Origin: Norana najaformis
Lineage: Eukaryota; Annelida; Clitellata; Crassiclitellata; Hormogastridae
Direction of reading: 5' to 3'
Assembly: GCA_964023275.1 (NCBI GenBank)
Contig: OZ029916.1
Span: 22,345,389 to 22,409,388, forward strand
DNA length: 64,000 nucleotides
Under the pieces are notes generated by a model. It was not told where the DNA came from. It did not search any database and saw only the letters and a program-made list of their open reading frames with translations. A program made the position numbers and the translations under genes. The first letter of the stretch is position 1; each line of letters starts with the position of its first letter. Of this stretch, positions 29,601 to 64,000 are shown in pieces.

Positions 29601-32600
29601 GCTATTTAAGTTTCTAATGTAGCTTTTCAACATGTGGATCACGGTCATCACTTTTACTAATTCAGTAAAAGCTCATTTGCCATTTACACATTTCATTTCA
29701 CAAAATTTACAGCATTTAAACATTTTACTTCTCACAATATATAAGTACTTGATTTATGGTAAATATTAAATTTATTGACTCTTTTAATAACATTGGAATA
29801 AGCCTGCCTTGTGACAATGATTGTCACTGAAGATAACACAGGATAATCTGAAAGAATTCAGCCAACTTGGGTCACCATCATCCTCATCATTATCATCAAC
29901 AATTGCCTTGGGGCTAGAACATCAATTTTCTCCTCATCTTCTGAGATAATAATAAATGAGAAAGCTATAACAAAACCTCCTTAACACATGCACTATCATA
30001 ATATCAATTGTTACATAATGCAGTCAGGGCATTTATTTCACCTTTAAATATGACTTCGTAACAATGCACCTCGTTATAACATGGTGCTTGATATTCCTCC
30101 CAAACATAGGATTATATGGAGAGTCCAGCACACAGCTACAACATGTATTTCTTAAATTTCATTTTCAATGTAACAGAGCTCTGCAATTAAAACTACTAAA
30201 ATGATTTTTAAAATTTTACATTTTTAAAATTTGGCATGAAATTTATCTACTTCTTATTGCTTTAGAATAACCCCACAGCATAAGATTAAATAAAGTTCAC
30301 CATTTGCCTTTGAGAGATTCTTAAAATGAGCTATAAAAATAATCTGATGCATTAAGATAAGAAATCAAACCGCAGCCAATATGCCACTAATACATGCTAT
30401 GATTTTTCTTAGGGGAACATTATTTATCTTAAGAAAATATCAAGCAACCCAAGTGTACATGAAAAACATCCTTTTAGTAAAATGAAACTATGTGTTTGAA
30501 ATCATAATACATTTTCAAACAGTCAAGAATTCTAACCTCCAAGAAACGGTATGTTGTCGTTTTCGATTCTACTAACACCAGTTGGAAAATCATCACAGGC
30601 AAAAAGTATTACAGCGTCGAAGAAACTTGTATGTGGAGCAGCAACAACAATTGGAGCCTTAGTCTGGTTATCTCCAGTTGCAGAATTTTTATGTTCAATA
30701 ACACGAATCTTGTGATAACCACAAGAAAACAGCACACCTCGTATCAAAGCTCGCACTAGGATGGATAATTTTCTGGAACAGAAACCAAACACCATTTGAT
30801 ATATTTGAATTCACAACCATTGTCAACATAAAAAAAGATTACACTTCAAATTTGTAAAATTATCACACAAATAGCAATTTACCAAAAAACAGAGACTGAA
30901 GTATAAGAAATATACTAAATATTTCCAACTTCTCAATACATTTAGAAAAGCCATCAAGTATCGATATCTAAGAAAATCTACCAAGTACAGAAGCACTAGA
31001 AGACCCAACTGATGAGCAGCCAATGCATGTAGCCAGTTCTTTCCTTTGCTGTCTAATCTCACCACCGATAATGTACAGTTGATATGATGCACTCAATTTA
31101 AAGCCCAGAATACCAATCCTAAAATATTTTTCTGTTCACAAGATAATTTGAACCCCGATCTCTGGGCTGACATTCTCACATTAATCAATAGATTATCACA
31201 CTTCTAATCCACAATAAATTGGTGAATCCCTTAATGAGTGGTTCTTAAACTGGTGGTCTACACACTGGCACTGGTCTGTACAGCTCCAGTAACTGGTCTG
31301 CAAAAATAATTCCAACGTGCAACAAAGTGACAAAGCATAGATGAGAGAAGCTTAAAAAACTGACACTTAAATCTGACAGGCTGTAACTTACTCTACTTAC
31401 GGACTCAAATAACTGGCGACTCATCAAAATTCCTGACTATTGTTAGCTGACTATCGCTACATCACTGTCAAGAGACTTGGCATCATTTGGCCTCTGCCAG
31501 CACACAACTTCATACAAAGTTCAAGAACTACTGCCCTAGATTTTCATTTGAAATCAAAATGGGCACAGACACTAGTCACAGAAATGCAATGCAAGCGAGG
31601 CATGGTCTTCTGTAATATAATAGGCCATCTAAAATGCAAAGACCTTCACTGGCAGATTTAGAGACAGCTCGGTTACTGAAATCAACCAAAGCATGATTGT
31701 CTTATCATCCCACTAGGCCTCTTGGATCACCACTTTCTTGTCTTGATCATCAGTAACAGCATCATCATCATTTATCGATCACCTCTGGTCAATGATCACC
31801 TCCTCATCACTATCTTTCTCTTCATCACAGTCTTTCTGGAATTTAGATTCTTCAAAAAAGATCAACTGAATTTTAAAAAATGGTCTGCAGATTATTTTGG
31901 GGTACTGACCTCCTCCATCCACTCATCGGTTTCTCTTGGTGATGGCTCACTCCGTATGTGGCAATTGCTGTCGTGACACATATCAGTAACAGACAGAACA
32001 ACAACATGATCACTCGGATTGGAAAGACCGTCACAGACATAACTGCAATCTGTGAAATAATAAAAATATATTTTCTCAACACGTGTAATTCAATCTTCAG
32101 TAGTATGAATGAATACATCTAGTATTTATATAATATCTTTTAAGAACCTGTCTATGACACTGCCAATGAATTCCTTAACCTTTTTATTTCCTGCACAGAT
32201 GTTGCTTTAAAGACTTAACTCGATTCATTTATATTAATTAATTAATTAAGTATGTTCTTTATTAATCAATATCTCATCGCACATCGGTGTACAAGTATTT
32301 AATCTAATAAGCTAACAGAAAAAACTTATCAAGTGTACAATGTCCTAATAATAGATTTACGCATTAAACTATCAGCAGGAAGGATCATACGGTCATGGGG
32401 ACGGGACCGTAAGGAATAACACAGGGTTTTGACTGGCGGGAGTAGCTGCTGACTAGCGGGAGTAGCTGTAGTAAGATAGTTTGAATTATTCAAAATTGTT
32501 TTAAAGAGATGAGCGTCGGCTATGCCACTGAACTCTGGCCAACCACTTAGCCAACAATACTTAAAATCATTCCTCACTCCTCAAACTATCATTATTCAAC

Positions 32601-33726
32601 CAGGTCACCTGAATGCCTTTCTCTTGCTGTGCCAAAAACTAGAACTGTTCTTGGTGAGCGAGCTTTTCGGTTCGTAGTGGATCCGTTAACGCCCGGGACA
32701 TTAGCGGAAACTCAGAGACTAGATTCACGCTATTGGCTAAAGCATGTCACGTGAAATTTGCACTTCCGTTGTGATTTGGGTCACTTCCGGATGCATTTCT
32801 AGATTTTGAAATGGCGGCCCTCAGGCTGCATCAGTTTAGCTAGCTTTCCATCAATTTCTCTTATAAAGATAATGTCAAAATTTGATACTCTTATCGCTAT
32901 TTCATGCATTTTAATTACAAATACCAAAGGTCTCGTTGTGCCAGCAAAAATGCATTAAAATGGGCTATGAGGCAATAAACTTGTATTTCCCAAAAAGAAA
33001 TGTATTTGTGGGTTTGTTGGACTGAATTTTTAAAAAGAAAATCCCCATTTCTTGTTTTTGTTTGCAAATGCGCGACAGGCAATTATGCAGGTTCTCATAA
33101 CAACATCAGTTATTAATATACAGATATTTTATCAGAAAGGGGTCCAAATTAGGTCATTTTTACTACTGTCCTTTCCTAACATACAACACGTGTTACGCTT
33201 TACTATATTCGGGCGTGAGAGGATCCTCGACAACTTCAATCACGCCCGTTAGCCCCATACGCGTGCACAAAATCACGTGCTATGCATTGACCAATTGCGT
33301 GGCGGGCGTTATTCGAGTCCCGTGTATAGGCTAACGTCGGGCGTTACGGTATCCACGATCTTTTCGGTTGTTTCGTTCTCGACTTCAGACTTACCTTATT
33401 CAGTTGGCTTAACCGCCGCAGGCTGCCTCAGTCTTAGGAGACTGAACTGGATATTGACCTCAGTGCGGCTTAAATTTAATGCGCCATAGGTTGATGCCTT
33501 GTGCATTAGACACCGGCGCTCTAACAGTTCCTAATTAATAAAAATATAAAAAATGTTCTCGTTCGCAATTCCGTGAACGCCTCGTGCTATGCTCGACAAC
33601 GAATTCAGCCGTAAAAACATTTACCTGTATTTTACCCCATATCGAGAATTTTACTCGATGAAAGAAAGGGTTGGGAAGACCGGATTCGTTCAAGGAATCG
33701 CATCTGTCTACCTTATTTTCACTCAT
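20655..33726 (-). CDS. LPCAT2: Lysophosphatidylcholine/lyso-PAF acyltransferase (LPCAT2-like), complete, 13 exons
   Basis: This ER membrane enzyme re-acylates lysophosphatidylcholine; vertebrate LPCAT2 also acetylates lyso-PAF. Exons, 5' to 3': 33726-33625, 32049-31910, 30772-30537, 29552-29379, 28230-28172, 27181-27147, 26745-26691, 26327-26245, 25541-25416, 24586-24436, 22528-22430, 21971-21830, 20788-20655. All have AG/GT borders and matching phases, totalling 511 codons plus stop (human LPCAT2 about 544). A hydrophobic segment spans residues ~43-64. The acyltransferase motifs are HTSFFD (128-133) and FPEGTC with EGTC at 203-206. Three EF-hand loops follow: 386-397 (DRNCSGTIDFRE, canonical), 423-434 (degenerate) and 458-469 (canonical). 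The C-terminus KKTL is a KKXX ER-retrieval signal. GWRRKLS, VAAPH and SNTEDVIQLAF favour LPCAT2 over LPCAT1, though an invertebrate gene may be co-orthologous to both. Its start has A at -3. It is divergent from the RPTVHW gene, and a second copy starts at 62214. Confidence 0.95.
21551..21656. repeat. 107-bp direct repeat D, copy 1
   Basis: Nearly identical to 24204-24312, with only a few substitutions and one length change. It sits in the intron between LPCAT2 exons 12 and 13. Confidence 0.85.
22960..24200 (-). mobile_element. LINE fragment with RT motifs and 3' end, in LPCAT2 intron
   Basis: Read on the minus strand, 5' to 3', it shows IPQGSV (RT motif) and then CADDILLYISF, corresponding to the YADD box region. 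Near the end come VAGPRSWNSSSK and PGLKTHLFLDSF, typical of the ORF2 C-terminus of CR1/L2-like LINEs. Frames shift several times. The 5' half is missing. It lies in sense orientation within the intron between LPCAT2 exons 10 and 11. Confidence 0.75.
24204..24312. repeat. 107-bp direct repeat D, copy 2
   Basis: Second copy of the sequence at 21551-21656, in the same orientation, about 2.65 kb away in another LPCAT2 intron. It immediately abuts the upstream end of the LINE fragment at 22960-24200, so it may be a LINE-linked or separately dispersed repeat. Confidence 0.85.
24946..25305. repeat. 45-bp minisatellite, 8 units, in LPCAT2 intron
   Basis: Eight units of 45 bp run head to tail with very few differences, e.g. 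GATAACTGCTTG against GGTAACTGCTTG. Because 45 is a multiple of 3, the minus strand is open in two frames, one giving the 15-residue repeat ALEQAVIRVDRSWKI. It lies between exons 9 and 10, which splice cleanly without it. It ends 111 bases from exon 9. Confidence 0.95.
25936..26102. repeat. Two-copy tandem duplication of about 83 bp
   Basis: A block starting TTGATAAGTTTGGTTAAAAT and ending TTATTGAAATGT is present twice in a row with few mismatches, in the intron between LPCAT2 exons 8 and 9. Confidence 0.85.
27660..27716. repeat. Long direct repeat flanking a LINE insert, left copy
   Basis: About 57 bases are nearly identical to 28112-28168, differing at CTGG/CCGG. The two copies flank the LINE fragment 27718-28111 exactly. 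Confidence 0.85.
27718..28111 (+). mobile_element. 5'-truncated LINE ORF2 fragment (C-terminal end)
   Basis: An open frame running through 27689-28120 encodes TFLGSVVEREGKCDMEI, PTVTYGSETWTMTKK and INACEMWIWRKLLR. These are hallmarks of the segment C-terminal to the reverse transcriptase in RTE/jockey-like LINEs (FKYLGS...; LYGSETW...; EMRCWRR). The frame is unbroken over about 130 codons, so the insertion looks young. It is antisense to LPCAT2 and lies between exons 5 and 6, flanked by an unusually long direct repeat. Confidence 0.85.
28112..28168. repeat. Long direct repeat flanking a LINE insert, right copy
   Basis: Second copy of 27660-27716. It ends at the splice donor of LPCAT2 exon 5 (exon edge 28172), so the donor itself is preserved. 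Confidence 0.85.
28565..28870 (+). repeat. Dispersed repeat C, copy 2 (LPCAT2 intron)
   Basis: It aligns with 15410-15700 in the same orientation over about 290 bases. Neither copy has visible terminal repeats, a tRNA head or an RT motif, so the class of the family is unknown. Confidence 0.72.
31136..31200 (-). mobile_element. tRNA-derived SINE head
   Basis: On the minus strand it reads AATCTATTGATTAATGTG (A-box region), GTCAGCCCAGAGATC, then GGGGTTCAAATT (B-box region), close to the spacing of a tRNA. The body is not clear. It lies between LPCAT2 exons 2 and 3. Confidence 0.5.
32340..32520 (-). mobile_element. LINE ORF2 C-terminal remnant
   Basis: On the minus strand YSLRSRPHDRMILPADS followed by IIRTLYT resembles the extreme C-terminus of LINE ORF2 proteins (NLR-R-H ... 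F--RLLY). A short in-tandem duplication (AGCGGGAGTAGCTG) lies within it. The same remnant occurs in arm 2 at 63430-63620. Confidence 0.5.
32525..33545 (+). mobile_element. LINE family B 3' end, split by a MULE-like element
   Basis: Left part 32525-32672 and right part 33360-33545 match consecutive portions of the LINE at 10780-11530: CTTGGTGAGCGAGCTTTTCGG on the left, and the 3' terminus with GCGCCATAGGTTGATGCC and GACACCGGCGC on the right. The MULE-like element 32673-33359 lies between them. The fragment lies in LPCAT2 intron 1. Confidence 0.72.
32673..33359. mobile_element. Non-autonomous Mutator-like (MULE) element, 687 bp
   Basis: The ends are long imperfect inverted repeats: GTGGATCCGTTAACGCCCG on the left and the reverse complement of GTGGATACCGTAACGCCCG on the right. 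Similarity extends about 100 bases inward, including CACGTG-like words. It is flanked by a perfect 10-bp direct repeat CTTTTCGGTT (32663-32672 and 33360-33369). The related LINE at 11260-11290 has this site once. Target duplications of 9-11 bp are typical of MULEs. No transposase is present. Confidence 0.82.
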
Positions 33727-34326
33727 TTTTGTTGAAAAATGTTAAACTGTTATAAACTCCTTTCCTAGATCTTGACGCATAGACATCTATGTCTTGACGC
33801 TGTCCTTTCAACAGGCTTGAGTACAACGAGGTAATAGAAGAACTAGAGAAAGTGCTGCCGTGTATTGGGCTTACGACGGCTGTAGCTGCTGGAAGTGACG
33901 TATCACCAGGCTAGCTGGTAGACGGTCAGCTGCCAACAGTGCATCTGCCGATGCAATTAGGATGTGGAATCTGGCCAAATTTATAACAAAAATAGGTTTT
34001 ACCTTTGTCTCCAGCCCTATTGAATTTTGCTTGTTATTTCTAACTCATCTGTTGGACGCTAATTTTGTGTTTTCGTTACGCAGGAGGAATAATTAAGCCT
34101 CACGTTGACATGTCGTCCGGCGCTCCTGTGCGTCAAAAAGCGAAAATCAAAATCAAATCCCGACGTTAGAAATGCAAAACGCGACAATAAAAGTTAAAAA
34201 CGCCGCGAGAAAAATCAAAACGTGGATAAAAATTAAAAACTAGGCAAAGTAGCTAAATATTGTCCGTGATCAACTTTTACAATTTTTATTGCCTTCCGGT
34301 AAATAGGAAAGAAGTGGCTAAAAATT

Positions 34327-34563
34327 GAGGAGGAGGAGGAGGAAGAGGAGAAGGAGGAGGAGGAAGAAGAGGAGGAGGAGGAGAAGGAGGAAGAGGAGGA
34401 AGAGAGGAGGAGGAGGAAAAGGAGGAAAAGGAGGAAAAGGAGGAGAAGGAGAAAAAGGAGGAAAAGGAGGAAAAGGAGGAAAAGGAGAAGGAGGAAAAGG
34501 AGAAGGAGGAGGAGTAGGTGGAAAAGGAGGAGGAGAAGATGAGGAGGAGGAGGAGGACGTTGA
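34327..34563. repeat. Polypurine (GGA/GGAA) tract, arm 1
   Basis: About 235 bases are almost purely purine on the plus strand, between LPCAT2 and the divergent RPTVHW gene. Such tracts can form triplex structures. The basic and serine-rich open frames through it are artefacts. The arm 2 counterpart is 61382-61622 and differs in unit order. Confidence 0.95.
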
Positions 34564-34729
34564 GTAGAAGCGGAAGCAGAAGAAAAGCAGTCTCTAAAAA
34601 CTTAAATCGCATCTGTTTACGGATAAGTGATTCTGAATTCAAACAGCTTTACATAAGCAAATACATTAATTAATTAATAACGCAGCGATTAATTTAGCGG
34701 TTTAAAATATTTTCGCGGCAGTGACGAAA

Positions 34730-34737
34730 TGACGTCA
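34730..34737. promoter_or_regulatory. Perfect CRE (TGACGTCA) upstream of RPTVHW gene, arm 1
   Basis: A palindromic CREB/ATF site lies 146 bases before the proposed ATG at 34883. A second half-type site, TTACGTCAT, follows at 34751-34759. Both are preserved in arm 2 (61204-61211, 61182-61190). Binding is inferred from the word alone. Confidence 0.55.
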
Positions 34738-34882
34738 TTTTCGCGACTGATTACGTCATCTCCTTTGTTGGTTCGGCCTTCTTGTTGAGAGAGCTTTTGG
34801 CTAGATTGTTCGATTGCGATTTTCTAGGCGATTTTTTGGCGAATTTGTGAATTGTTAAATTGTCTGTTCAGCGTTGCTGGTG

Positions 34883-36330
34883 ATGTTTCGACGGCTGTTC
34901 GGTCGCTGGTTCGGTTGTCTGCTCGAGACGCTGTTTGGGATGCCGGTTGCGCAGGGAGGAGAGGTTGACGTGGAGGCTGCGACGCCCCCGGGAGCTGCCG
35001 AAGAAGATCCCGTCCAGGTAGTAGCCCCTCAGATTTTCTATCCAGGCCCCCGTGATGCGAACATGCGGGGCATTCTTTTTGTGTGTAACGGGCAGAGGGT
35101 CCTCATTGACAGTCAGGGCGAATCGAGGACCGTGTGTGAAATCGTCGATGACCGGTCAGGGTTGACGAACCGGTCATCAGGTGACGGTCACCGCGGTCCG
35201 ATTCCCTGTCCTCTGTTCGATGACCGAGTTGAGTCAGATCGTGTCAGAGATGTTGAAACACCCGCTGGTCCGCTTTGGAATATGTCCTTATTCAGCTTTC
35301 TTAAGAACCCCACACATGATGAGACAAATAGATCGACGCCCTGTACTGACGAAACAGCTGTCAAAGTATGTGAGGAGGTCTCACACGAAGACACGGGTGA
35401 TGGTAATGGGGATGGACTGACGGATGAATGCGATTCTGACACTGATCCCTGTTCTGGCGAAGTAACACCAGTCGAAGTTCGTGAGGAGGTATCGCCCCTG
35501 TACTGACGAAACGGCTGTGAAAGTACGTGAGGAGGTCTCACACGAAGGCGGGGGGTGACTGTGACGTGGATGAAAGTGAATCTCATCCCGATCCTGACCA
35601 GACGTTGTTGAAAGTGCGTGAGGAGGGGGAGCCACGAAGACAGAGCTGGTCATGAAGATGATGACACGGGAGTCCCTCTTGTGGGTCAGCCATATGCCCC
35701 AGTTCAAGCTGATTCACTGCGCACTCTTGTCCATGATGCCAGTGATCAGCGGTTCCCAGACCCTGCTCACCCACATGGTATTTTTGAAAGGGACACAAGT
35801 CACACCCTTGTCAACTGGTCTGACAAGTCAACATCAGTCAGGACTGTCACGCGAGGCACTGACGATGATCGATTGACTTTGATCAGAGGGGTGGATGACG
35901 GCGACAGAAATGTCAATCCCGCTCGTCAGGCAAACGTGCATTGCAAAACCGTCGTGGATGTCCATCATTACGATCTCTCTGACCGTGCTCCCTATCGAGG
36001 GATTCCGAAAAGGGCCCCTGTCCGGCCCACTGTTCACTGGGCTGAGGAACTGAGGGAGGTGCGGGTTTTTTGAGCAAGGCGCTGAGGAAGACCTGGAAGT
36101 TCTGTTTTGTGGGAAAAACTGATCATGACACTGAGGAAAAGGGTTTTGCTGATGAGAGACGGAGAGGCAGAGAAAAGAGAGGTTGAAGGGGAAGATCTCT
36201 TGACTGTTAACACCCATTATGCACGCCACTTTCGCCGCCGTTTACCGCCACCACCTCCTCAACTACCGTCACTACTTTACCCGTTGCGAAGACCTCTGCC
36301 ACGCTGGGACGACTACAACCACTACCTACT
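34883..36330 (+). CDS. Uncharacterised RPTVHW-family protein, arm 1 copy (frame interrupted)
   Basis: I do not recognise this gene. The ATG at 34883 follows codons the longest open frame also includes but which lack an ATG. The N-terminus (MFRRLFGRWFGCLLETLF) looks like an amphipathic or membrane-associating helix. An acidic middle follows, with repeats of TDETAVKVREEVSHED and a TSP3-like GDGNGDGLTDECDSDTD. The C-terminal part has IPKRAPVRPTVHWAEEL and LREVRVF, reminiscent of PP1-docking motifs such as TVTW in PNUTS or KVRF in PPP1R15. Coding is split over several frames: 34883-35506, about 35618-36073 and 36107 on. Many arm differences lie in G or C runs, so sequencing error, allelic decay and real pseudogenisation all remain possible. 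Satellite sequence starts about 390 bases downstream. Confidence 0.6.
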
Positions 36331-36722
36331 CTACCTCCGCTACCACCGCTTTCACTTCTATGACTATTTTCTGCCGCTTTTTTCCACCTCTACCAGACCC
36401 TTCTATGACTGCTTCCACCACCTGTACCCTGAGGACTACAAGCACTTTCACGTCTACTTCTACCACTTCTGCCCACTTCAAACGCCTATTCTTGCTGACC
36501 ACGCCAGGAGGGGGCATTCCAACACCTTCCATGCCCAGGCCCCGGGGGGTAAATCTCAGAAACCTACTTGGATGCAGGCGGCTCCAGATGAGTCCATTTT
36601 CCGAAGCAATTTGGAAGCTTCGATTTTTTCAAAATTTTTTAATTTTTCTCTAAATTGTTCGTTGTTAGCCGTTAGCGTTTTTTGCGTTTTGTTTGTCGAG
36701 TTATATTTTTTTTTTAAAATTT

Positions 36723-36817
36723 TGCAAGTGGAAAAAATAATCTAACGGGCGAATCTGTGAGAGAGAGAGTGAGAACTTGCACGTGGAAAAAATAATCTAC
36801 CGGCGAATCTGAAAGAA
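36723..36817 (-). repeat. Two satellite units at the inner edge of arm 1
   Basis: These bases contain the reverse complement of the unit seen at 50285-58935 (TTGCAAGTGG ... AATAATCTACCGGCGAATCTG). Arm 1 therefore also runs into the satellite before the assembly stops at the N run. Confidence 0.9.
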
Positions 36818-36827
36818 NNNNNNNNNN
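36818..36827. other. Assembly gap (10 N)
   Basis: A run of ten N directly follows two satellite units. The true amount of sequence missing is unknown, and the join to 36828 onward is not supported by sequence continuity. Confidence 0.99.
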
Positions 36828-37168
36828 CAAGGACGGGTTATATGCTCATATTTTTGAGTTTGTATGAAGGCTGAGGTGAACAAAGCATGCCCAATAGTTG
36901 CTTCTGAGTAAATCGGATATATGTACCTGAATCTGTTGTCACTTTGGTCGAAGTGCAACAGGGCATTCCACAGAGGTAAGTTACCTGAGACAGCTTAGCA
37001 TCAGATAAGTTAATGGCCTGTTTATTATGCACTGTCTTCTTCTATACCAGGCACTGGTAAATATGCCTTCACAATAAGTTTTTATGACACATCAGGAATC
37101 CAACCTCTTCCAAACAGTGGCAGAAGTGAGCAGCCGCTTCACCACTATACCCAGCTGACAAACTAAAG
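36828..37168. other. Unannotated sequence after the gap
   Basis: Ordinary AT-rich sequence with no convincing exon, repeat or RNA. It may hold upstream exons or the promoter of the gene starting near 37185, but I cannot show that. Confidence 0.4.
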
Positions 37169-37184
37169 CAAGGGTTTAAATGTC

Positions 37185-43157: not shown

Positions 43158-43295
43158 ATTATTCAATAAGATTACTTATTTTCAATATTCTAATATAAAT
43201 TAGAATTTGATTGGATATTTAATGATTCTGATCTACGTACTATACCACGGGGTACCTACCATCAATAATATCAATAATAAGACAGGTAAATAACA

Positions 43296-43573
43296 ATTGT
43301 CGCAACGGGCGTAGTAATGACGGAAGTTAATGCGATGGCTGTTAGAACGGCGGTGGTAGCGTCGGGTATAATCAGGATCAACCGTCAGAGGATCTTCCCG
43401 GCCATCATCGTTTTCTATGCCCCTCTCTGTCTTTCGTCACCAAAACCAACCTCACTGTCAAGTTTATTGGCCACAACGATGATGTCAAGGTCTTCATCAG
43501 CGCCTTTTTCAAACACCCGAACCTTCAATAAATTCTCAACCCAGTGAACAGTGGGACGATCCTTGGCCTGTTT
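43296..43573 (-). pseudogene. Third, diverged RPTVHW-family copy (partial)
   Basis: On the minus strand it encodes KDRPTVHWVENLLKVRVF followed by EKGADEDLDI. After a frame interruption it continues with GEDPLTVDPDYTRRYHRRS and INFRHYYARCD. These match the arm copies (RPTVHWAEELREVRVFEKGAEEDLEV; GEDLLTVNTHYARHFRRR; NYRHYFTRCED). Several codon differences in the core are silent while the residues are kept. The 5' side is cut off by an inverted LINE family A tail beginning at about 43574, so N-terminal and acidic-repeat regions are absent. Confidence 0.75.
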
Positions 43574-50284: not shown

Positions 50285-51570
50285 TTTTCCTCTCTCTCTC
50301 TCTCTCCTTCAGATTCGCCACTAGATTCTTTTCCACTGGCAAGCTTTCCTCTCACCGATTCGCCGGTAGATGCTTTTACCACAGGCAAGTTTCTCTCACT
50401 GTCTCAGATTCGCCGGTAGAGTCTCTTTCCACTGGCAAGTTTCTCTCTGGCTCTCAGATTCGCCGGTAGAGTTTTTCCACTGGCAAGTTTCTCTCTCTCA
50501 GATTCGCCGGTAGATTCTTTTTCCACTTGCAAGTTCTCTCTCTCTCAGATTCGCCGGTAGATTATTTTTCCACTTGCAGGTTCTCTCTCTCTCTCAGATT
50601 CGCCGTTAGATTCTTTTTCCACTGGCAAGTTTCTCTCTCTCAGATTCGCCGGTAGATTCTTTTTCCACTGGCAAGTTCTCTCTCTCGGATTCGAGGGTAG
50701 ATTCTTTTTCCACTGGCAAGTTTCTCTCTCTCAGATTCGCCGGTAGATTCTTTTTTCACTGGCAAGTTTCTCTCTCTCAGATTCGCCGATAGATTATTTT
50801 TCCACTTGCAAGTTCTCTCTCTGTCAGATTCGCCGGTAGATTCTTTTTCCACATGCAAGTTCTCTCTCTCTCAGATTCGCCGTTAGATTCTTTTTCCACT
50901 GGCAAGTTTCTCCCTCTCAGATTCGCCAGTAGATTCTTTTTCCACTGGCAAGTTTCTCTCTCTCAGATTCGCCGTTAGATTCTTTTTCAACTGGCAAGTT
51001 CTCTCTCTCACAGATTCGCCAGTAGATTCTTTTTCCACTGGCAAGTTTCTCTCTCTCAGATTCGCCGTTAGATTCTTTTTCAACTGGCAAGTTCTCTCTC
51101 TCACAGATTCCCCGGTAGAATCTTTTTCCACTGGCAAGTTTCTCTCTGTCTCTCAGATTCACCGGTAGATTCTTTTTCCACTTGCAAGTTCTCTCTCTCT
51201 CAGATCGCCGGTAGATTCTATTTCAAGTGGCAAGTTTCTCTCTCTCTCTCTAAGTTTCGGCGGTAGATTCTTTTTCCACTGGCAAGTTTCTCTCTGTCTC
51301 ATTCGCTGGTAGGTTCTTTTTCCAGCTGCATGTTTCTCTCTCTCTCAGATTCGCCGTTAGATTCTTTTTCCACTTGCAAGTTCTCTCTGTCTCTCAGATT
51401 CGCCGGTAGATTCTTTCTCCACTGGCAAGTTCTCTCTCTCTCTCAGATTCGCCGCTAGATTCTTTTTCCACTGGCAAGTTTCTCTTTCTTAGATTCGCCG
51501 GTAGATTATTTTTCCACTTGCAAGTTCTCTCTCTCTCAGATTCGCCGTTAGATTCTTTTTTCACTGGCAA

Positions 51571-51636
<66 letters not shown>

Positions 51637-51723
51637 TCTGTCAAATTCGCCGGTTGATTCTTTTTCCACTGGCAAGTTTCTCTCTCTCACAGATTCGCCG
51701 ATAGAGTCTTTTTCCAGCGACAA

Positions 51724-51772
<49 letters not shown>

Positions 51773-53619
51773 AGTTTCGGCGGTAGATTCTTTTTCCACC
51801 TGCAAGTTTCTCTCTCCCTCAGATCGCCGGTAGATTCTTTTTCCACTGCCAAGTTCTCTCTGTCTTTCAGATTCGCCGGTAGATTATTTTTCCACTGGCA
51901 AGTTCTCACTCTCTCTCACAGATTCGCCGTTAGATTCTTTTTCCACTGCCAAGTTCTCTCTCTCTCTCTCTCAGATTCGCAGGTAGAGTCTTTTTCATTG
52001 GCAAGTTCTCTCTCTCTCTCTCAGATTCGCCGGTGGAGTCTTTTTTCACTGGCAAGTTCTCTCTGTCTTTCAGAGTGCCGGTAGATTCTTTTTCCACTGG
52101 CAAGTTCTCTCTCCCTCAGATTCGCCGAAAGATTCTTTTTCCACTGGCAAGTTCTCTCTCTTTCTCTCGCAGATTCGCCGGTAGATTCTTTTTCCACTGG
52201 CAAGTTTCTCTCTGTCTCTCAGATTCGCCGGTAGATTCTTTCTCCACTGACAAGTTCTCTCTCTCTCAGATTCGCCGCTAGATTCTTTTTCCACTGGCAA
52301 GTTTCTCTCTCTCAGATTCGCCGGTAGATTATTCTTCCACTTGCAAGTTCTCTCTCTCTCTCAGATTCGCAGGTAAAGTCTTTTTCATTGGCAAGTTCTC
52401 TCTGTCTTTCAGATTGCCGGTAGATTCTTTTTCCACTGCCAAGTTCTCTCTGTCTTTCAGATTCGCCGTTAGATTCTTTTTCCACTGCCAAGTTCTCTCT
52501 CTCTCTCTCAGATTCGCAGGTAGAGTCTTTTTCATTGGCAAGTTCTCTCTCTCTCTCAGATTCGCCGGTGGAGTCTTTTTCCACTGGCAAGTTCTCTCTG
52601 TCTCTCAGATTCGCCGTTAGATTCTTTTTCCACTGCCAAGTTCTCTCTCTCTCTCTCTCAGATTCGCAGGTAGAGTCTTTTTCATTGGCAAGTTCTCTCT
52701 CTCTCTCTCAGATTCGCCGGTGGAGTCTTTTTTCACTGGCAAGTTCTCTCTGTCTTTCAGATTCGCCGGTAGATTCTTTTTCCACTGGCAAGTTCTCTCT
52801 CTCTCTCAGATTCGCCGGTAGATTCTTTTTCCACTGGCAAGTTTCTCTCTCTCAGATTCGCCGGTAGATTATTTTCCACTTGCAAGTTCTCTCTCTCTCT
52901 CTCTCTCTCAGATTCGCCGTTAGATTCTTTTTCCACTGGCAAGTTCTCTCTCTCAGATTCGCAGGTAAAGTCTTTTTCATTGGCAAGTTCTCTCTGTCTT
53001 TCAGATTGCCGGTAGATTCTTTTTCCAGTGGCAAGTTCTCTCTCCCTCAGATTCGCCGTTAGATTCTTTTTAAAGTGGCAAGTTCTCTCTCTCTCTCTCT
53101 GTCAGATTCGCCGAAAGATTCTTTTTCAACTGGCAAGTTCTCTCTCTTTCTCTTGCAGATTCGCCGGTAGAATCTTTTTCCACTGGCAAGTTTCTCTCTG
53201 TCTCTCAGATTCGCCGGTAGATTTTTTTTCCAGTGGCAAGTTTCTCTCTCTCTCATTCGCCGGTAGGTTCCTTTTCCAGCTGCATGTTTCTCTCTCTCTC
53301 AGATTCGCCGGTAGATTCTTTTTCCACTTGCAAGTTCTCTCTCTCTCATTCGCCGGTAGGTTCCTTTTCCAGCTGCATGTTTCTCTCTCTCTCTCAGATT
53401 CGCCGTTAGATTCTTTTTCCACTGGCAAGTTCTCTCTCTCTCAGATTCGCCGTTAGATTCTTTTTCCACTTGCAAGTTCTCTCTGTCTCTCAGATTCGCC
53501 GGTAGATTCTTTCTCCACTGGCAAGTTCTCTCTCTCTCTCAGATTCGCCGGTAGATTCTTTTTCCACTGGCAAGTTTCTCTCTCTCAGATTCGCCGGTAG
53601 ATTATTTTTCCACTGGCAA

Positions 53620-53660
<41 letters not shown>

Positions 53661-53839
53661 CGCCGTTAGATTCTTTTTCCACTTGCAAGTTCTCTCTCTC
53701 ACAGATTCGCCGATAGAGTCTTTTTCCAGCGACAAGTTTCTCTCTCTCTCTCTCTCTCTCATATCGCCGGTAGATTCTTTTTCCAGTGGCAAGTTTCTCT
53801 CTCTCTCTCATTCACCGGTAGGTTCTTTTTCCAGCTGCA

Positions 53840-53883
<44 letters not shown>

Positions 53884-56800
53884 AGTTTCGGCGGTAGATT
53901 CTTTTTCCACTGGCAAGTTTCTCTCTCCCTCAGATCGCCGGTAGATTCTTTTTCCACTGCCAAGTTCTCTCTCTCTCTCTCTCAGATTCGCCGGTAGATT
54001 ATTTTTCCACTGGCAAGTTCTCACTCTCTCTCTCACAGATTCGCCCAAAGATTCTTTCTCCACTGGCAAGTTCTCTCTCCCTCAGATTCGCCGGTAGATT
54101 CTTTTTCCACTGGCAAGTTTCTCTCTCCCTCAGATCGCCGGTAGATTCTTTTTCCACTGCCAAGTTCTCTCTCTCTCTCTCTCAGATTCGCCGGTAGATT
54201 ATTTTTCCACTGGCAAGTTCTCACTCTCTCTCTCTCACAGATTCGCCCAAAGATTCTTTCTCCACTGGCAAGTTCTCTCTCCCTCAGATTCGCCGATAGA
54301 GTCTTTTTCCAGCGACAAGTTTCTCTCTCTCTCTCAGATCGCCGGTATATTCTTTTTCCAGTGGCAAGTTTCTCTCTCTCTCTCATTCACCGGTAGGTTC
54401 TTTTTCCAGCTGCATGTTTCTCTCTCTCTCTCTCTCAGATTCGCCGGTAGATTCTTTTTCCACTTGCAAGTTCTCTCTCTCAGATTCGCCGGTAGATTAT
54501 TTTTCCACTTGCAAGTTCTCTCTCTCTCTCAGATTCGCCGTTAGACTCTTTTTCCACTGGCAAGTTCTCTCTCTCTCAGATTCGCCGGTAGATTCTTTTT
54601 CCACTGGCAAGTTCTCTCTCTCTCTCAGATTCGCCGGTAGATTCTTTATCCACTGGCAAGTTTCCCTCTCTCAGATTCGCCGGCAGATTCTTTTTCCACT
54701 TGCAAGTTCTCTCTCTGTCAAATTCGCCGGTAGATTCTTTTTCCACTGGCAAGTTCTCTCTCTCTCTCAGATTCGCCGTTAGATTCTTTTTCCACTTGCA
54801 AGTTCTCTCTCTCAGATTCGCCGGTAGATTCTTTTTCCACTTGCAAGTTCTCTCTCTGTCAAATTCGCCGGTAGATTCTTTTTCCACTTGCAAGTTCTCT
54901 CTGTCTTTCAGATTCGCCGGTAGATTCTTTTTCCACTGGCAAGTTTCTCTCTCTCAGATTCGCCGGTAGATTTTTTTTCCACTTGCAAGTTCTCTCTCTC
55001 TCTCTCTCTCTCTCAGATTCGCCGTTAGATTCTTTTTCCACTGGCAAGTTCTCTCTCTCAGATTCGCAGGTAAAGTCTTTTTCATTGGCAAGTTCTCTCT
55101 GTCTTTCAGATTGCCGGTAGATTCTTTTTCCAGTGGCAAGTTCTCTCTCCCTCAGATTCGCCGTTAGATTCTTTTTAAAGTGGCAAGTTCTCTCTCTCTC
55201 TCTCTGTCAGATTCGCCGAAAGATTCTTTTTCAACTGGCAAGTTCTCTCTCTTTCTCTTGCAGATTCGCCGGTAGAATCTTTTTCCACTGGCAAGTTTCT
55301 CTCTGTCTCTCAGATTCGCCGGTAGATTCTTTTTCCAGTGGCAAGTTTCTCTCTCTCTCATTCGCCGGTAGGTTCCTTTTCCAGCTGCATGTTTCTCTCT
55401 CTCTCAGATTCGCCGGTAGATTCTTTTTCCACTGGCAAGTTCTCTCTCTCTCATTCGCCGGTAGGTTCCTTTTCCAGCTGCATGTTTCTCTCTCTCTCTC
55501 AGATTCGCCGTTAGATTCTTTTCCCACTGGCAAGTTCTCTCTCTCTCAGATTCGCCGTTAGATTCTTTTTCCACTTGCAAGTTCTCTCTGTCTCTCAGAT
55601 TCGCCGGTAGATTCTTTCTCCACTGGCAAGTTCTCTCTCTCTCTCAGATTCGCCGGTAGATTCTTTTTCCACTGGCAAGTTTCTCTCTCTCAGATTCGCC
55701 GGTAGATTATTTTTCCACTTGCAAGTTCTCTCTCTCTCAGATTCGCCGTTAGATTCTTTTTCCACTGGCAAGTTTCTCTCTCTCAGATTCGCCGGTAGAT
55801 TATTTTTCCACTTGCAAGTTCTCTCTCTCTCAGATTCGCCGTTAGATTCTTTTTCCACTTGCAAGTTCTCTCTCTCTCAGATTCGCCGTTAGATTCTTTT
55901 TCCACTGGCAAGTTCTCTCTCTCTCTCTCTCTCGCTCTCTCTCTCTCTCTCAAATTCGCCGGTAGATTCTTTCTCCACTGACAAGTTCTCTCTCTCTCAG
56001 ATTCGCCGCTAGATTCTTTTTCCACTGGCAAGTTTCTCTCTCTCAGATTCGCCGGTAGATTATTCTTCCACTTGCAAGTTCTCTCTCTCTCTCAGATTCG
56101 CAGGTAAAGTCTTTTTCATTGGCAAGTTCTCTCTGTCTTTCAGATTGCCGGTAGATTCTTTTTCCACTGCCAAGTTCTCTCTGTCTTTCAGATTCGCCGT
56201 TAGATTCTTTTTCCACTGCCAAGTTCTCTCTCTCTCTCTCAGATTCGCAGGTAGAGTCTTTTTCATTGGCAAGTTCTCTCTCTCTCTCAGATTCGCCGGT
56301 GGAGTCTTTTTCCACTGGCAAGTTCTCTCTGTCTCTCAGATTCGCCGGTAGATTCTTTCTCCACTGGCAAGTTCTCTCTCTCTCTCAGATTCGCCGGTAG
56401 ATTCTTTTTCCACTGGCAAGTTTCTCTCTCTCAGATTCGCCGGTAGATTATTTTTCCACTTGCAAGTTCTCTCTCTCTCTCTCTCTCAGATTCGCCGTTA
56501 GATTCTTTTTCCACTGGCAAGTTCTCTCTCTCAGATTCGCAGGTAAAGTCTTTTTCATTGGCAAGTTCTCTCTGTCTTTCAGATTGCCGGTAGATTCTTT
56601 TTCCAGTGGCAAGTTCTCTCTCCCTCAGATTCGCCGTTAGATTCTTTTTAAAGTGGCAAGTTCTCTCTCTCTCTCTCTGTCAGATTCGCCGAAAGATTCT
56701 TTTTCAACTGGCAAGTTCTCTCTCTTTCTCTTGCAGATTCGCCGGTAGAATCTTTTTCCACTGGCAAGTTTCTCTCTGTCTCTCAGATTCGCCGGTAGAT

Positions 56801-57149
56801 TCTTTTTCCAGTGGCAAGTTTCTCTCTCTCTCATTCGCCGGTAGGTTCCTTTTCCAGCTGCATGTTTCTCTCTCTCTCAGATTCGCCGGTAGATTCTTTT
56901 TCCACTGGCAAGTTCTCTCTCTCTCAGATTCGCCGTTAGATTCTTTTTCCACTTGCAAGTTCTCTCTGTCTCTCAGATTCGCCGGTAGATTCTTTCTCCA
57001 CTGGCAAGTTCTCTCTCTCTCTCAGATTCGCCGGTAGATTCTTTTTCCACTGGCAAGTTTCTCTCTCTCAGTTTCGCCGGTAGATTATTTTTCCACTTGC
57101 AAGTTCTCTCTCTCTCAGATTCGCCGTTAGATTCTTTTTCCACTGGCAA

Positions 57150-57204
<55 letters not shown>

Positions 57205-58935
57205 CGCCGTTAGATTCTTTTTCCACTTGCAAGTTCTCTCTCTCACAGATTCGCCGATAGAGTCTTTTTCCAGCGACAAGTTTCTCTCTCTCTCTCTCTC
57301 TCTCAGATCGCCGGTAGATTCTTTTCCAGTGGCAAGTTTCTCTCTCTCTCTCATTCACCGGTAGGTTCTTTTTCCAGCTGCATGTTTCTCTCTCTCTCTC
57401 TCTCTCTAAGTTTCGGCGGTAGATTCTTTTTCCACTGGCAAGTTTCTCTCTCCCTCAGATCGCCGGTAGATTCTTTTTCCACTGCCAAGTTCTCTCTCTC
57501 TCTCTCTCAGATTCGCCGGTAGATTATTTTTCCACTGGCAAGTTCTCACTCTCTCTCTCACAGATTCGCCCAAAGATTCTTTCTCCACTGGCAAGTTCTC
57601 TCTCCCTCAGATTCGCCGGTAGATTCTTTTTCCACTGGCAAGTTTCTCTCTCCCTCAGATCGCCGGTAGATTCTTTTTCCACTGCCAAGTTCTCTCTCTC
57701 TCTCTCTCAGATTCGCCGGTAGATTATTTTTCCACTGGCAAGTTCTCACTCTCTCTCTCTCACAGATTCGCCCAAAGATTCTTTCTCCACTGGCAAGTTC
57801 TCTCTCCCTCAGAGTCTTTTTCCAGCGACAAGTTTCTCTCTCTCTCTCAGATCGCCGGTATATTCTTTTTCCAGTGGCAAGTTTCTCTCTCTCTCTCATT
57901 CACCGGTAGGTTCTTTTTCCAGCTGCATGTTTCTCTCTCTCTCTCTCTCAGATTCGCCGGTAGATTCTTTTTCCACTTGCAAGTTCTCTCTCTCAGATTC
58001 GCCGGTAGATTATTTTTCCACTTGCAAGTTCTCTCTCTCTCTCAGATTCGCCGTTAGACTCTTTTTCCACTGGCAAGTTCTCTCTCTCTCAGATTCGCCG
58101 GTAGATTCTTTTTCCACTGGCAAGTTCTCTCTCTCTCTCAGATTCGCCGGTAGATTCTTTATCCACTGGCAAGTTTCCCTCTCTCAGATTCGCCGGCAGA
58201 TTCTTTTTCCACTTGCAAGTTCTCTCTCTGTCAAATTCGCCGGTAGATTCTTTTTCCACTGGCAAGTTCTCTCTCTCTCTCAGATTCGCCGTTAGATTCT
58301 TTTTCCACTTGCAAGTTCTCTCTCTCAGATTCGCCGGTAGATTCTTTTTCCACTTGCAAGTTCTCTCTCTGTCAAATTCGCCGGTAGATTCTTTTTCCAC
58401 TTGCAAGTTCTCTCTGTCTTTCAGATTCGCCGGTAGATTCTTTTTCCACTTGCAAGTTCTCTCTCTCTCTCAGATTCGCCGTTAGATTCTTTCTCCACTG
58501 GCAAGTTCTCTCTCTCTCAGATTCGCCGTTAGATTCTTTTTCCACTTGCAAGTTCTCTCTGTCTCTCAGATTCGCCGGTAGATTCTTTCTCCACTGGCAA
58601 GTTCTCTCTCTCTCAGATTCGCCGGTAGATTCTTTTTCCACTGGCAAGTTTCTCTCTCTCAGATTCGCCGGTAGATTCTTTTTCCACTGGCAAGTTTCTC
58701 TCTCTCTCAGATTCGCCGTATATGCTTTTTCCACTGGCAAGTTCTCTCAGATTCGCCGGTAGATTCTTTTTCCACTGGCAAGTTCTCTCTGTCTCTCAGA
58801 TTCGCTGGTAGACTGTTTTTCCACTGGCAAGTTCTCTCAGATTCGCCGGTAGATTCATTTTCCACTGGCAAGTTTCTCTCTTTCTCAGATTCGCCGGTAG
58901 ATTCTTTTTCCACTGGCATGTTCTCTCTCTGGCAA
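50285..58935. repeat. CT-rich satellite array, 8.65 kb, with higher-order repeats
   Basis: The unit is a conserved core of about 37 bp (CAGATTCGCCGGTAGATT, then CTTTTTCCACTGGCAAGTT) plus a (CT)n run of variable length, total about 45-75 bp and roughly 160 units. Blocks recur as wholes: 52312-52590 equals 56043-56321, a 1.0-1.5-kb type block starts at 53028, 55133 and 56606, and 53490-54970 recurs at about 57070-58480. The many Arg/Glu/Ser-rich or Leu/Ser-rich open frames on both strands are by-products of the repeat, not genes. Confidence 0.96.
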
Positions 58936-59261
58936 AACGAATTTACGCCTTATATTCAGAAAATAAATAAAAACAACTCAGGCGTGAACTTAAATCAGAA
59001 TACAACCACATAGTAATAAGACAGGTAAAAATCAGCAGCTCCAGACAAATTTATACGGAAAAATGCAAAATAGAACACGCTTAAGTTAAGTTAGAAAACG
59101 GGAAACGAATAATTTGTCAAAAAATACGAGAACTCCAAAATGCAAAAACTACAATCAACATTGAAAATTCTAAGCGCTACAATAATTACGAAATTCAAAA
59201 ACTCTTCAAACGCGAAATACATAAAAAATTTAAACTTTCAACTTTTTTGTTTTTTTTTAAA
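58936..59261. other. Segment between satellite and arm 2, absent from arm 1
   Basis: About 325 bases of AT-rich sequence separate the satellite from the start of arm 2 homology. In arm 1 the satellite follows directly. It is either deleted in arm 1 or inserted in arm 2. Confidence 0.75.
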
Positions 59262-59599
59262 TTTAAAAAAATTATAACTCGACAAACAAACGCAAAAACG
59301 CTAACGGCTAACAACGAACAATTTAGAGAAAAATTAAAAATTTGAAAAAGCGAAGGTTCCAAATTGCTTCGGAAATGGACTCATCTGGAGCCGCCTGTAT
59401 CCAAGTAGGTTCTGAGTTTTATCCCCGGGGCCTGGGCATGGAAGGTGTTGGAATGCCCCTCCTGGCGTGGTCAGCAAGATAGGCGTTGAAGTGGCAGAAG
59501 TGGTAGAAGTAGACGTGAAAGTGCTTGTAGTCCTCAGGGTACAGCTGGTGGAAGCAGTCATAGAAGGTCTGGTAGAGGTGGAAAAAGCGGCAGAAATAG

Positions 59600-61058
59600 T
59601 CATAGAAGTGAAAGCGGTGGTATCGGAGGTAGGGTAGGTAAGTGGTTGTAGTCGTCCAGCGTGGCAGAGTCTTCGCAACGGGTAAAGTAGTGACGGTAGT
59701 TGAGGAGGTGGTGGCGGTAACGGCGGCGAAAGTGGCGTGCATAATGGGTGTTAACAGTCAAGAGATCTTCCCCTTCAACCTCTCTTTCTCTGCCTCTCCG
59801 TCTCTCATCAGCAACCCTTTCCTCAGTGTCATGATCAGTTTCCACAAACAGAACTTCCAGGTCTTCCTCAGCGCCTTTCTCAAACACCCGCACCTCCCTC
59901 AGTTCCTCAGCCCAGTGAACAGTGGGCCGGACACGGGCCCTTTTCGGAATCCCTCCATAGGGAGCACGGTCAGAGAGATCGTAATGATGGACACCCACGA
60001 CGGTTTTGCAATGCACGTTTGCCTGACGAGCGGGATTGACATTTCTGTCGCCGTCATCCTCCCCTCTGATCAAAGTCAATCGATTATCGTCAGTGACAGA
60101 CCTGACTGATGTTGACTTGTCAGACCAGTTGACAAGGGTGTGACTTGTGTCCCTTTCAAAAATACCATGTGGGTGAGCAGGGTCTGGGAACCGCTGATCA
60201 CTGGCATCATGGACAAGAGTGCGCAGTGAATCAGCTTGAACTGGGGCATATGGCTGACCCACAAGAGGGACTCCCGTGTCATCATCTTCATGACCAGCTC
60301 TGTCTTCGTGGCTCCCCCTCCTCACGCACTTTCAACAACGTCTGGTCAGGATCGGGATGAGATTCACTTTCATCCACGTCACAGTCACCCCGGCCTTCGT
60401 GTGAGACCTCCTCACGTACTTTGACAGCTGTTTCGTCAGTACAGGGTGATACCTCCTCGCGAACTTCGACTGGTGTTACTTCGCCAGAACAGGGATCAGT
60501 GTCAGAATCGCATTCATCCGTCAGTCCATCCCCATTACAATCACCCGTGTCTTCGTGTGAGACCTCCTCACGTACTTTGACAGCTGTTTCGTCAGTACAG
60601 GGCGTCGATCTGTTTGTCTCATCATGTGTGGGGTTCTTAAGAAAGCTGAATAAGGACATATTCCAAAGCGGACCAGCGGGTGTTTCAACATCTCTGACAC
60701 GATCTGACTCAACTCGGTCATCGAACAGAGGACAGGGAATCGGACCGCGGTGACCGTCACCTGATGACCGGTTCGTCAACCCTGACCGGTCATCGACGAT
60801 TTCACACACGGTCCTCGAATCGCCCTGACTGTCAATGAGGACCCTCTGCCCGTTACACACAAAAAGAATGCCCCGCATGTTCGCATCACGGGGGCCTGGA
60901 TAGAAAATCTGAGGGGCTACTACCTGGACGGGATCTTCTTCGGCAGCTCCCGGGGGCGTCGCAGCCTCCACGTCAACCTCTCCTCCCTGCGCAACCGGCA
61001 TCCCAAACAGCGTCTCGAGTAGACAACCGAACCAGCGACCGAACAGCCGTCGAAACAT
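59600..61058 (-). CDS. Uncharacterised RPTVHW-family protein, arm 2 copy
   Basis: This is the better preserved copy. From the ATG at 61058 the first frame runs 256 codons to 60288. It contains the amphipathic N-terminus, a middle region (PQIFYPGPRDANMRGILFVC) and two full copies of TDETAVKVREEVSHE within acidic sequence. A second frame at 59600-60325 carries HEDDDTGVPLVGQPYAPVQ, RPTVHWAEELREVRVFEKGA, GEDLLTVNTHYARHFRRR and NYRHYFTRCED. The two frames overlap at a G run where repeat homology points to a length change shared with arm 1. Its layout (N-terminal helix, acidic repeats, C-terminal docking-like motif, CRE upstream) recalls PPP1R15/GADD34, but the eIF2-phosphatase RFARRI block is not recognisable, so this is analogy only. 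Confidence 0.65.
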
Positions 61059-61181
61059 CACCAACAACGCTGAACAGACAATTTAACAATTCACAAATTC
61101 GCCAAAAAATCGCCTAGAAAATCGCAATCGAACAATCTAGCCAAAAGCTCTCTCAACAAGAAGGCCGAACCAACAAAGGAG

Positions 61182-61211
61182 ATGACGTAATCAGTCGCGA
61201 AAATGACGTCA
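61182..61211. promoter_or_regulatory. CRE and half-CRE upstream of RPTVHW gene, arm 2
   Basis: TGACGTCA at 61204-61211 and ATGACGTAA at 61182-61190 correspond exactly to the arm 1 pair, 146 bases upstream of the ATG at 61058. Confidence 0.55.
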
Positions 61212-61381
61212 TTTCGTCACTGCCGCGAAAATATTTTAAACCGCTAAGTTAATCGCTGCGTTATTAATTAATTAATGTATTTGCTTATGTAAAGCTGTAT
61301 GAATTCAGAATCACTTATCCGTAAACAGATGCGATTTTAGTTTTTAGAGACTGCTTTTCTTCTGCTTCCGCTTCTACTCAA

Positions 61382-61622
61382 CGTCCTCCTCCTCCTCCTC
61401 CTCATCTTCTCCTCCTCCTTTTCCACCTACTCCTTCTCCTTCTCCTCCTTTTCCTCCTTCTCCTTTTCCTCCTTTTCCTCCTTCTCCTCCTTTTCCTCCT
61501 TCTCCTCCTTCTCCTCCTTTTCCTCCTCCTCCTCTTCCTCCTCTTCCTCCTTTTTCTCCTCCTTTTCCTCCTCCTCCTCTTCTTCCTCCTCCTCCTTCTC
61601 CTCTTCCTCCTCCTCCTCCTCA
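61382..61622. repeat. Polypyrimidine tract, arm 2
   Basis: Counterpart of 34327-34563. It is similar in length but differs in the order of CCT and TTTTCCT units, showing that the arms are not exact copies. Confidence 0.95.
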
Positions 61623-62213
61623 ATTTTCAGCCACTTCTTTCCTATTTACCGGAAGGCAATAAAAATTGTAAAAAGTTGATCACGGACAATATTTAGCTAC
61701 TTTGCCTAGTTTTTAATTTTTATCCACGTTTTGATTTTTCTCGCGGCGTTTTTAACTTTTATTGTCGCGTTTTGCATTTCTAACGTCGGGATTTGATTTT
61801 GATTTTCGCTTTTTGACGCACAGGAGCGCCAGACGACATGTCAACGTGAGGCTTAATTATTCCTCCTGCGTAACGAAAACACAAAATTAGCGTCCAACAG
61901 ATGAGTTAGAAATAACAAGCAAAATTCAATAGGGCTGGAGACAAATGTAAAACCTATTTTTGTTATAAATTTGGCCAGATTCCACATCCTAATTGCATCG
62001 GCAGATACACTGTTGGCAGCTGACCGTCTACCAGCTAGCCTGGTGATACGTCACTTCCGGCAGCTACAGCCCAATACACGGCAGCACTTTCTCTAGTTCT
62101 TCTATTACCTCGTTGTACTCAAGCCTGTTGAAAGGACAGCGTCAAGACATAGATGTCTATGCGTCAAGATCTAGGGAAGGAGTTTATAACAGTTTAACAT
62201 TTTTCAAAAAAAA

Positions 62214-64000
62214 ATGAGTGAAAATAAGGTAGACAGATGCGATTCCTTGAACGAATCCGGTCTTCCCAACCCTTTCTTTCATCGAGTAAAATTCTCGATA
62301 TGGGGTAAAATACAGGTAAATGTTTGTACGGCTGAATTCGTTGTCGAGCATAGCACGAGGCGTTCACGGAGTTGCGAACGAGAACATTTTTTATATTTTT
62401 ATTAATTAGGAACTGTTAGAGCGCTGGTGTCTAATGCACAAGGCATCAACCTATGGCGCATCAAATTTAAGCCGCACTGAGGTCAATATCCAGTTCAGTC
62501 TCCTAAGACTGAGGCAGCCTGCGGCGGTTAAGCCAACTGAATAAGGTAAGTCTGAAGTCGAGAACGAAACAACCGAAAAGATCGTGGATACCGTAACGCC
62601 CGACGTTAGCCTATACACGGGACTCGAATAACGCCCGCCACGCAATTGGTCAATGCATAGCACGTGATTTTGTGCACGTGAATGGGGCTAACGGGCGTGA
62701 TTGAAGTTGTCGAGGATCCTCTCACGCCCGAATATAGTAAAGCGTAACACGTGTTGTATGTTAGGAAAGGACAGTAGTAAAAATGACCTAATTTGGATCC
62801 CTTTCTGATAAAATATCTGTATATTAATAACTGATGTTGTTATGAGAACCTGCATAATTGCCTGTCGTGCATTTGCAAACAAAAACAAGAAATGGGGATT
62901 TTCTTTTTAAAAATTCAGTCCAACAAACCCACAAATACATTTCTTTTTGGGAAATACAAGTTTATTGCCTCATAGCCCATTTTAATGCATTTTTGCTGGC
63001 ACAACGTGACCTTTGGTATTTGTAATTAAAATGCATGAAATAGCGATAAGAGTATCAAATTTTGACATTATCTTTATAAGAGAAATTGATGGAAAGCTAG
63101 CTAAACTGATGCAGCCTGAGGGCCACCATTTCAAAATCTAGAAATGCATCCGGAAGTGACCCAAATCACAACGGAAGTGCAAATTTCACGTGACATGCTA
63201 TAGCCAATAGCGTGACGGGCGTGAATCTAGTCTCTGAGTTTCCGCTAATGTCCCGGGCGTTAACGGATCCACTACGAACCGAAAAGCTCGCTCACCAAGA
63301 ACAGTTCTAGTTTTTGGCACAGCAAGAGAAAGGCATTCAGGTGACCTGGTTGAATAATGATAGTTTGAGGAGTGAGGAATGATTTTAAGTATTGTTGGCT
63401 AAGTGGTTGGCCAGAGTTCAGTGGCATAGCCGACGCTCATCTCTTTAAAACAATTTTGAATAATTCAAACTATCTTACTACAGCTACTCCCGCTAGTCAA
63501 CAGCTACTCCCGCCAGTCAAAACCCTGTGTTATTCCTTACGGTCCCGTCCCCATGACCGTATGATCCTTCCTGCTGATAGTTTAATGCGTAAATCTATTA
63601 TTAGGACATTGTGCACTTGATAAGTTTTTTCTGTTAGCTTATTAGATTAAATACTTGTACACCGATGTGCGATGAGATATTGATTAATAAAGAACATACT
63701 TAATTAATTAATTAATTAATATAAATGAATCGAGTTAAGTCTTTAAAGCAACATCTGTGCAGGAAATAAAAAGGTTAAGGAATTCATTGGCAGTGTCATA
63801 GACAGGTTCTTAAAAGATATTATATAAATACTAGATGTATTCATTCATACTACTGAAGATTGAATTACACGTGTTGAGAAAATATATTTTTATTATTTCA
63901 CAGATTGCAGTTATGTCTGTGACGGTCTTTCCAATCCGAGTGATCATGTTGTTGTTCTGTCTGTTACTGATATGTGTCACGACAGCAATTGCCACATACG
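62214..64000 (+). CDS. LPCAT2: Second LPCAT2-like gene, exons 1 and 2 only (runs off the window)
   Basis: Exon 1 is 62214-62315 (34 codons, MSENKVDRCDSL... to WGKIQ, donor GTAAAT). Exon 2 begins at 63904 after TTTCACAG and is cut by the window end at 64000. It encodes IAVMSVTVFPIRVIML and the membrane segment. Both exons encode the same residues as the gene at 20655-33726, with the same phase and splice sites. Whether the remaining eleven exons are duplicated cannot be seen. Confidence 0.85.
62581..63276. mobile_element. MULE-like non-autonomous element, arm 2 copy, 696 bp
   Basis: It is flanked by AACCGAAAAG on both sides (62571-62580, 63277-63286), the complement of the arm 1 target duplication. 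It is longer than the arm 1 copy mainly through an extra CGGGCGTGA-type duplication near 63210. The insertion predates the separation of the arms. Confidence 0.82.
63372..63620 (+). mobile_element. LINE ORF2 C-terminal remnant, arm 2 copy
   Basis: Counterpart of the remnant at 32340-32520, encoding YSLRSRPHDRMILPADS in the plus orientation. It lies in intron 1 of the second LPCAT2 copy. Confidence 0.5.

Follow-up and report, generated by a model that had tools for sequence, protein, structure and literature searches.

False duplications in genome assemblies leave several marks, among others a gap between the two copies on one scaffold, half depth, discordant reads, and one-copy k-mers (PMC9516828, Genome Biol. 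2022). According to passages of the same paper, 7 to 24% of the false duplications in three previous assemblies were located on the same scaffold. A second kind of system with two similar copies is the palindrome with gene conversion between its arms. In mammalian sex-chromosome palindromes, conversion is reported to keep the arms at an identity of >99% (PMC8981503) or >99.9% (PMC3723533). A search of the literature for false palindromes found no paper on them.

The DNA analysed here is a stretch of 64,000 nucleotides of the annelid Norana najaformis (assembly GCA_964023275.1, contig OZ029916.1, positions 22,345,389 to 22,409,388 of the forward strand), referred to below as the window. It contains two inverted copies, both real letters of this assembly (Table 1). 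The pair is very probably a false (heterotype) duplication, in which both parental versions of one locus have been joined wrongly. Left in an annotation, a join of this kind could show up as a second LPCAT-like gene, a frame-broken pseudogene, and a palindrome, all of them false.

Table 1. Features of the inverted pair and its surroundings, with homopolymer counts by section of arm 1 (positions within the window)
Feature	Position	Strand	Remarks
Later LPCAT-like exon, frame	29338-29595	-	FPEGT acyltransferase motif; PF01553, E 4.6e-07; outside the arms
LPCAT-like exon 2	31910-32049	-	Borders AG/GT, approximate; arm 2 copy leaves the window
Arm 1	31953-36722	+	Outer border mirrors the window edge at the arm 2 side
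LPCAT-like exon 1, arm 1	33625-33726	-	Borders ATG to a GT; protein MSENKVDRCDSLNESGLPNPFFHRVKFSIWGKIQ
RPTVHW gene, arm 1	34883-36073	+	Frame shifted by surplus bases relative to arm 2, at ~35494, ~35550 and 36066
Poor-quality contig end	36060-36817	.	Surplus bases relative to arm 2 as far as 36722, then relative to most satellite units
Satellite stub ending the contig of arm 1	36723-36817	-	Reversed relative to the 50.3-58.9 kb array; best match 91%
Assembly gap, 10 N	36818-36827	.	Interpreted as the point where the contigs of the two arms meet
Third, diverged RPTVHW member	43293-43573	-	57% over 51 aa and 43% over 44 aa, pieces in different frames
Satellite array	50299-58930	+	Unit ~47 bp; 8.6 kb assembled at the arm 2 side
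Spacer, satellite to arm 2	58931-59258	.	328 bp, absent from arm 1
Arm 2	59259-64000	-	Runs off the window
RPTVHW gene, arm 2	59600-61058	-	Open in two overlapping frames
Homopolymers, arm 1 longer/arm 2 longer/all	31953-33000		1/1/62
Homopolymers, arm 1 longer/arm 2 longer/all	33001-34000		3/2/54
Homopolymers, arm 1 longer/arm 2 longer/all	34001-35000		11/9/67; contains a GA-rich microsatellite; not one-sided
Homopolymers, arm 1 longer/arm 2 longer/all	35001-35480		0/0/24
Homopolymers, arm 1 longer/arm 2 longer/all	35481-36059		3/1/34
Homopolymers, arm 1 longer/arm 2 longer/all	36060-36722		25/3/45

The Inverted Pair

When the 64,000-nt window is compared with itself by BLASTN, 31953-36722 aligns in inverted orientation with 59259-64000, with an identity of 97.1% over 4795 columns, 61 mismatches and 36 gap openings, and the inner ends of the two arms are 22.5 kb apart. 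The original prediction, which had placed inverted copies at 31953-36722 and 59262-64000 with about 22.5 kb between their inner ends, is thus confirmed. This is the only inverted match of at least 300 bp given by the self-comparison, and a separate repeat search of the window recovers the same pair in pieces. The second-best inverted match by score covers only 130 bp at 86%, which puts the arm pair far beyond chance. Since the window ends within arm 2, position 31953 is not a true border or breakpoint, and the duplicated stretch has a length of at least 4.74 kb.

A global alignment of the arms contains 58 substitutions in 4716 aligned bases and 38 indels. The substitutions amount to ~1.2%, are spread along the arms, and are compatible with alleles as well as with young paralogues. 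Without gaps the identity is ~98.8%, and it is 98.85% (47 substitutions in 4083 aligned bases) when the poor end of arm 1, described in the next section, is left aside. It had been suggested that the pair could be a palindrome exchanging sequence by gene conversion. Nothing in the arms supports this reading, since neither 97.1% with gaps nor ~98.8% without them reaches the >99% or >99.9% of converting palindromes; arm identity is still below 99% minus the poor end (98.85%), and gene conversion between the arms was rejected on these figures.

A true inverted duplication with a spacer of ~22.5 kb is nonetheless conceivable at a low probability. The satellite would then have hampered the assembly, so that the gap and the poor contig end would fall inside the palindrome. 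This explanation accounts for long inverted arms on one scaffold, and satellites are in general able to break contigs. Against it, the arms are not linked by gap-free sequence, as a run of 10 N stands between them, and no homogenisation by gene conversion is visible in their identity. Such a palindrome, if true, would amount to a duplicated gene pair of moderate interest and not to a new type of system.

The Assembly Gap and the Inner End of Arm 1

The sole N run of the window begins 95 bp beyond the inner end of arm 1. N runs usually mark joins of separate contigs. With such a run between them, the arms presumably belong to different contigs, which scaffolding alone would have ordered and oriented. 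A gap between the members of a pair on one scaffold, one of the marks of false heterotype duplications, is found here at 36818-36827. The length of 10 N was also considered as a possible signature of the Hi-C scaffolder instaGRAAL, an idea for which the passages of the instaGRAAL paper gave no support.

The sequence of arm 1 next to this gap differs from that of arm 2 in a one-sided manner. The alignment of the arms was split at 36060 into an outer part of 4083 and an inner part of 633 aligned bases. In the inner ~0.66 kb of arm 1, from 36060 onward, 24 of the 25 small indels are bases extra in arm 1, while the outer ~4.1 kb contains 4 larger indels and only 9 small ones, of which 3 add bases to arm 1 and 6 to arm 2. 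By a strict homopolymer rule, 21 of the 25 inner small indels are of this type (20 longer in arm 1, one in arm 2), compared with 4 of the 9 outer ones. The difference between 21 homopolymer indels per 633 inner bases and 4 per 4083 outer bases corresponds to an odds ratio of 33.9 and a Fisher p of 4.7e-15, a value that serves as a guide only because the split point was chosen post hoc, once the list of indels had been inspected. Substitutions are not significantly denser at the inner end (11/633 versus 47/4083, p 0.24). The homopolymer counts of Table 1, which comprise runs of length at least 3 and list those longer in either arm beside the total, agree with the indel counts. Two more surplus bases of arm 1 are found at ~35494 and ~35550, before the inner ~0.66 kb begins.

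The surplus bases of arm 1 are probably sequencing errors. One-sided lengthening of homopolymers piled up beside an N gap is useful in itself as a mark of a poor contig end that can be seen without reads and that names the copy to distrust. It is important to note that a poor contig end within a satellite can also adjoin a real duplication.

The Genes of the Arms

The original prediction assigned to each arm the 5′ end of an LPCAT2 gene and a divergent gene of the RPTVHW family, and had arm 2 reach the window edge while still within LPCAT exon 2. Both statements stand for a gene that is designated here as LPCAT-like: exon 1, at least the start of exon 2, and the RPTVHW motif are seen, and arm 2 does end inside exon 2. 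Exons 1 and 2 are presumably those of an LPCAT, as judged from a motif, and the 34-aa protein of exon 1 (MSENKVDRCDSLNESGLPNPFFHRVKFSIWGKIQ) is identical in arm 2, at 62214-62315. Beside this motif, the PF01553 match in the later frame (29338-29595) supports the putative LPCAT-like name. The neighbouring frame 30532-30810, for which Pfam gave no acyltransferase match, is taken by us as a further LPCAT-like exon from its H....D motif.

The RPTVHW genes start at 34883 in arm 1 and at 61058 in arm 2, divergent to the LPCAT-like gene. For one frame of their protein (243 aa), searches gave no hit in Pfam at thresholds up to E 1 or in PDB up to E 10, and nothing was found in PDB for the 48-aa core TVHWAEELREVRVFE. 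This core may resemble the docking region of protein-phosphatase-1 partners, for instance PNUTS.

The reading frames of the family indicate which arm is at fault. The frame of arm 2 continues through VRVFEKGAEEDLEVLF, where arm 1 hits a stop, and the third family member reads VRVFEKGADEDLDIIV at the same place, keeping the frame of arm 2 across 36066. Since arm 2 and the third copy both retain the frame at 36066, the first surplus base of the inner stretch, the fault at this position lies in arm 1; the remaining surplus bases are likely to be faults of arm 1 as well. For the same reason arm 2 was rejected as the faulty copy, although the third member is informative for 36066 and not for each of the other places. 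The idea that arm 1 is a decayed pseudogene was also rejected, because its small indels are one-sided, are mainly lengthened homopolymers, and are crowded in the last ~0.66 kb by the gap. Further along, the third copy changes frame as well, from one of its matched pieces to the other. Another frame change, more upstream and located between the two arm 2 frames, is common to both arms; it could be an intron or a real break and has no bearing on the argument about the fault.

The presence of at least one further RPTVHW member nearby indicates that duplication happens in this family, and the gap leaves the adjacency and orientation of the arms unproven, and no more than that. Both points would fit a true duplication located elsewhere in the genome, on the same or another chromosome and in any orientation, whose copies were set side by side through a scaffolding error. 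This is, however, very improbable: the duplicated stretch also takes in the beginning of the LPCAT-like gene, whose 34-aa first exon is identical in the two arms, and allelic variation alone can explain a divergence of ~1.2%.

The Satellite and the Spacer

Beyond its inner end, arm 1 passes into a stub of satellite that mirrors the array at the arm 2 side. All 141 matches between the stub and the array (50299-58930) are on the opposite strand, and none is on the same strand except the stub itself. The view that both inner ends run into the same satellite is correct for arm 1, which enters the stub (36723-36817) directly, and has to be modified for arm 2, from which the array is reached only past the 328-bp spacer. 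Mirrored matches would arise if arm 1 and arm 2, the latter reverse-complemented, represented the same locus. The whole layout, including the mirrored satellite at the inner ends, matches two allelic contigs; a true palindrome predicts the mirrored matches likewise, and they do not decide between the two.

The main structural difference between the two versions is the spacer, present beside arm 2 only, which has no other match in the window at E 0.01. Its presence beside one arm only is possible between paralogues, which would suit a real palindrome. If the arms are instead the two parental versions of one locus, the missing spacer in arm 1 implies that the haplotypes differ in structure here or that arm 1 is faulty at its end.

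The stub also has more bases than the units to which it corresponds. Compared with its best match in the array it has 5 surplus bases and none missing, and compared with the second best, 3 surplus and 2 missing; among 107 long array matches, the stub has on balance more bases in 102 and fewer in 4. As the array contains TC runs of differing length, this excess lends weak support to a poor quality of the stub.

The array itself comprises ~178 copies of the 47-bp unit. It hints at a higher-order period: among its best 15 shifts, the one of ~3.57 kb gives a self-match of 89.0%, and the 14 others 82.5-85.3%.

Other Features of the Window

Outside the inverted pair, an open frame of 569 aa at 6872-8581 (+) matches the Spin-doc zinc finger PF18658 (E 6.6e-09), with a DUF4371 match below the cut-off; it looks like a hAT-type transposase or a gene of such origin. 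At 11781-12053 (+) there is an apparent dual-specificity phosphatase exon, presumably CDC14-like, whose sole Pfam match, to the DSP-PTPase model, is below the cut-off. A tandem repeat with a 45-bp unit (8 copies, 98% matches) occupies 24946-25305 and is open in more than one frame.

Proposed Origin of the Pair

Under the preferred reading, a false duplication, the window would contain one locus, consisting of the LPCAT-like gene, the RPTVHW gene, the satellite, and the DNA that now runs from 50.3 to 36.8 kb, and each haplotype would have given its own assembly of it. On the side of haplotype A, the contig with arm 1 would halt within the satellite, where few or unpolished long reads would be available, and the contig of haplotype B, with arm 2, would traverse it. 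Scaffolding would then have set B behind A, inverted, with 10 N between them. The N run would accordingly be a contig join made by the scaffolder, and the arms would be alleles.

One of the two possibilities offered by the original prediction was a head-to-head join of two haplotypes over a satellite that had not been assembled. The haplotype join is the part that is favoured here. The satellite, with an 8.6-kb array assembled, cannot be the unassembled element as a whole, and the join is placed more precisely at the 10-N gap (36818-36827), where the satellite stub of arm 1 would meet the far end of the contig of arm 2. That the start of the LPCAT-like gene was truly duplicated in inverted orientation, together with the divergent gene of a family for which the searches gave no match, the copies being separated by the satellite and a further family member, is regarded as improbable.

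Comparison with Known Systems

The pair resembles the heterotype duplications described in passages of PMC9516828 in that two similar copies lie on one scaffold with a gap between them. It differs from those cases in that its copies are inverted, a word that is absent from the main text of PMC9516828. In having two inverted arms that carry genes, the pair is also similar to the mammalian sex-chromosome palindromes treated in passages of PMC3723533 and PMC8981503. Unlike the arms of those palindromes, the arms in N. najaformis have an identity of 97.1% with gaps and ~98.8% without, and an assembly gap lies between them.
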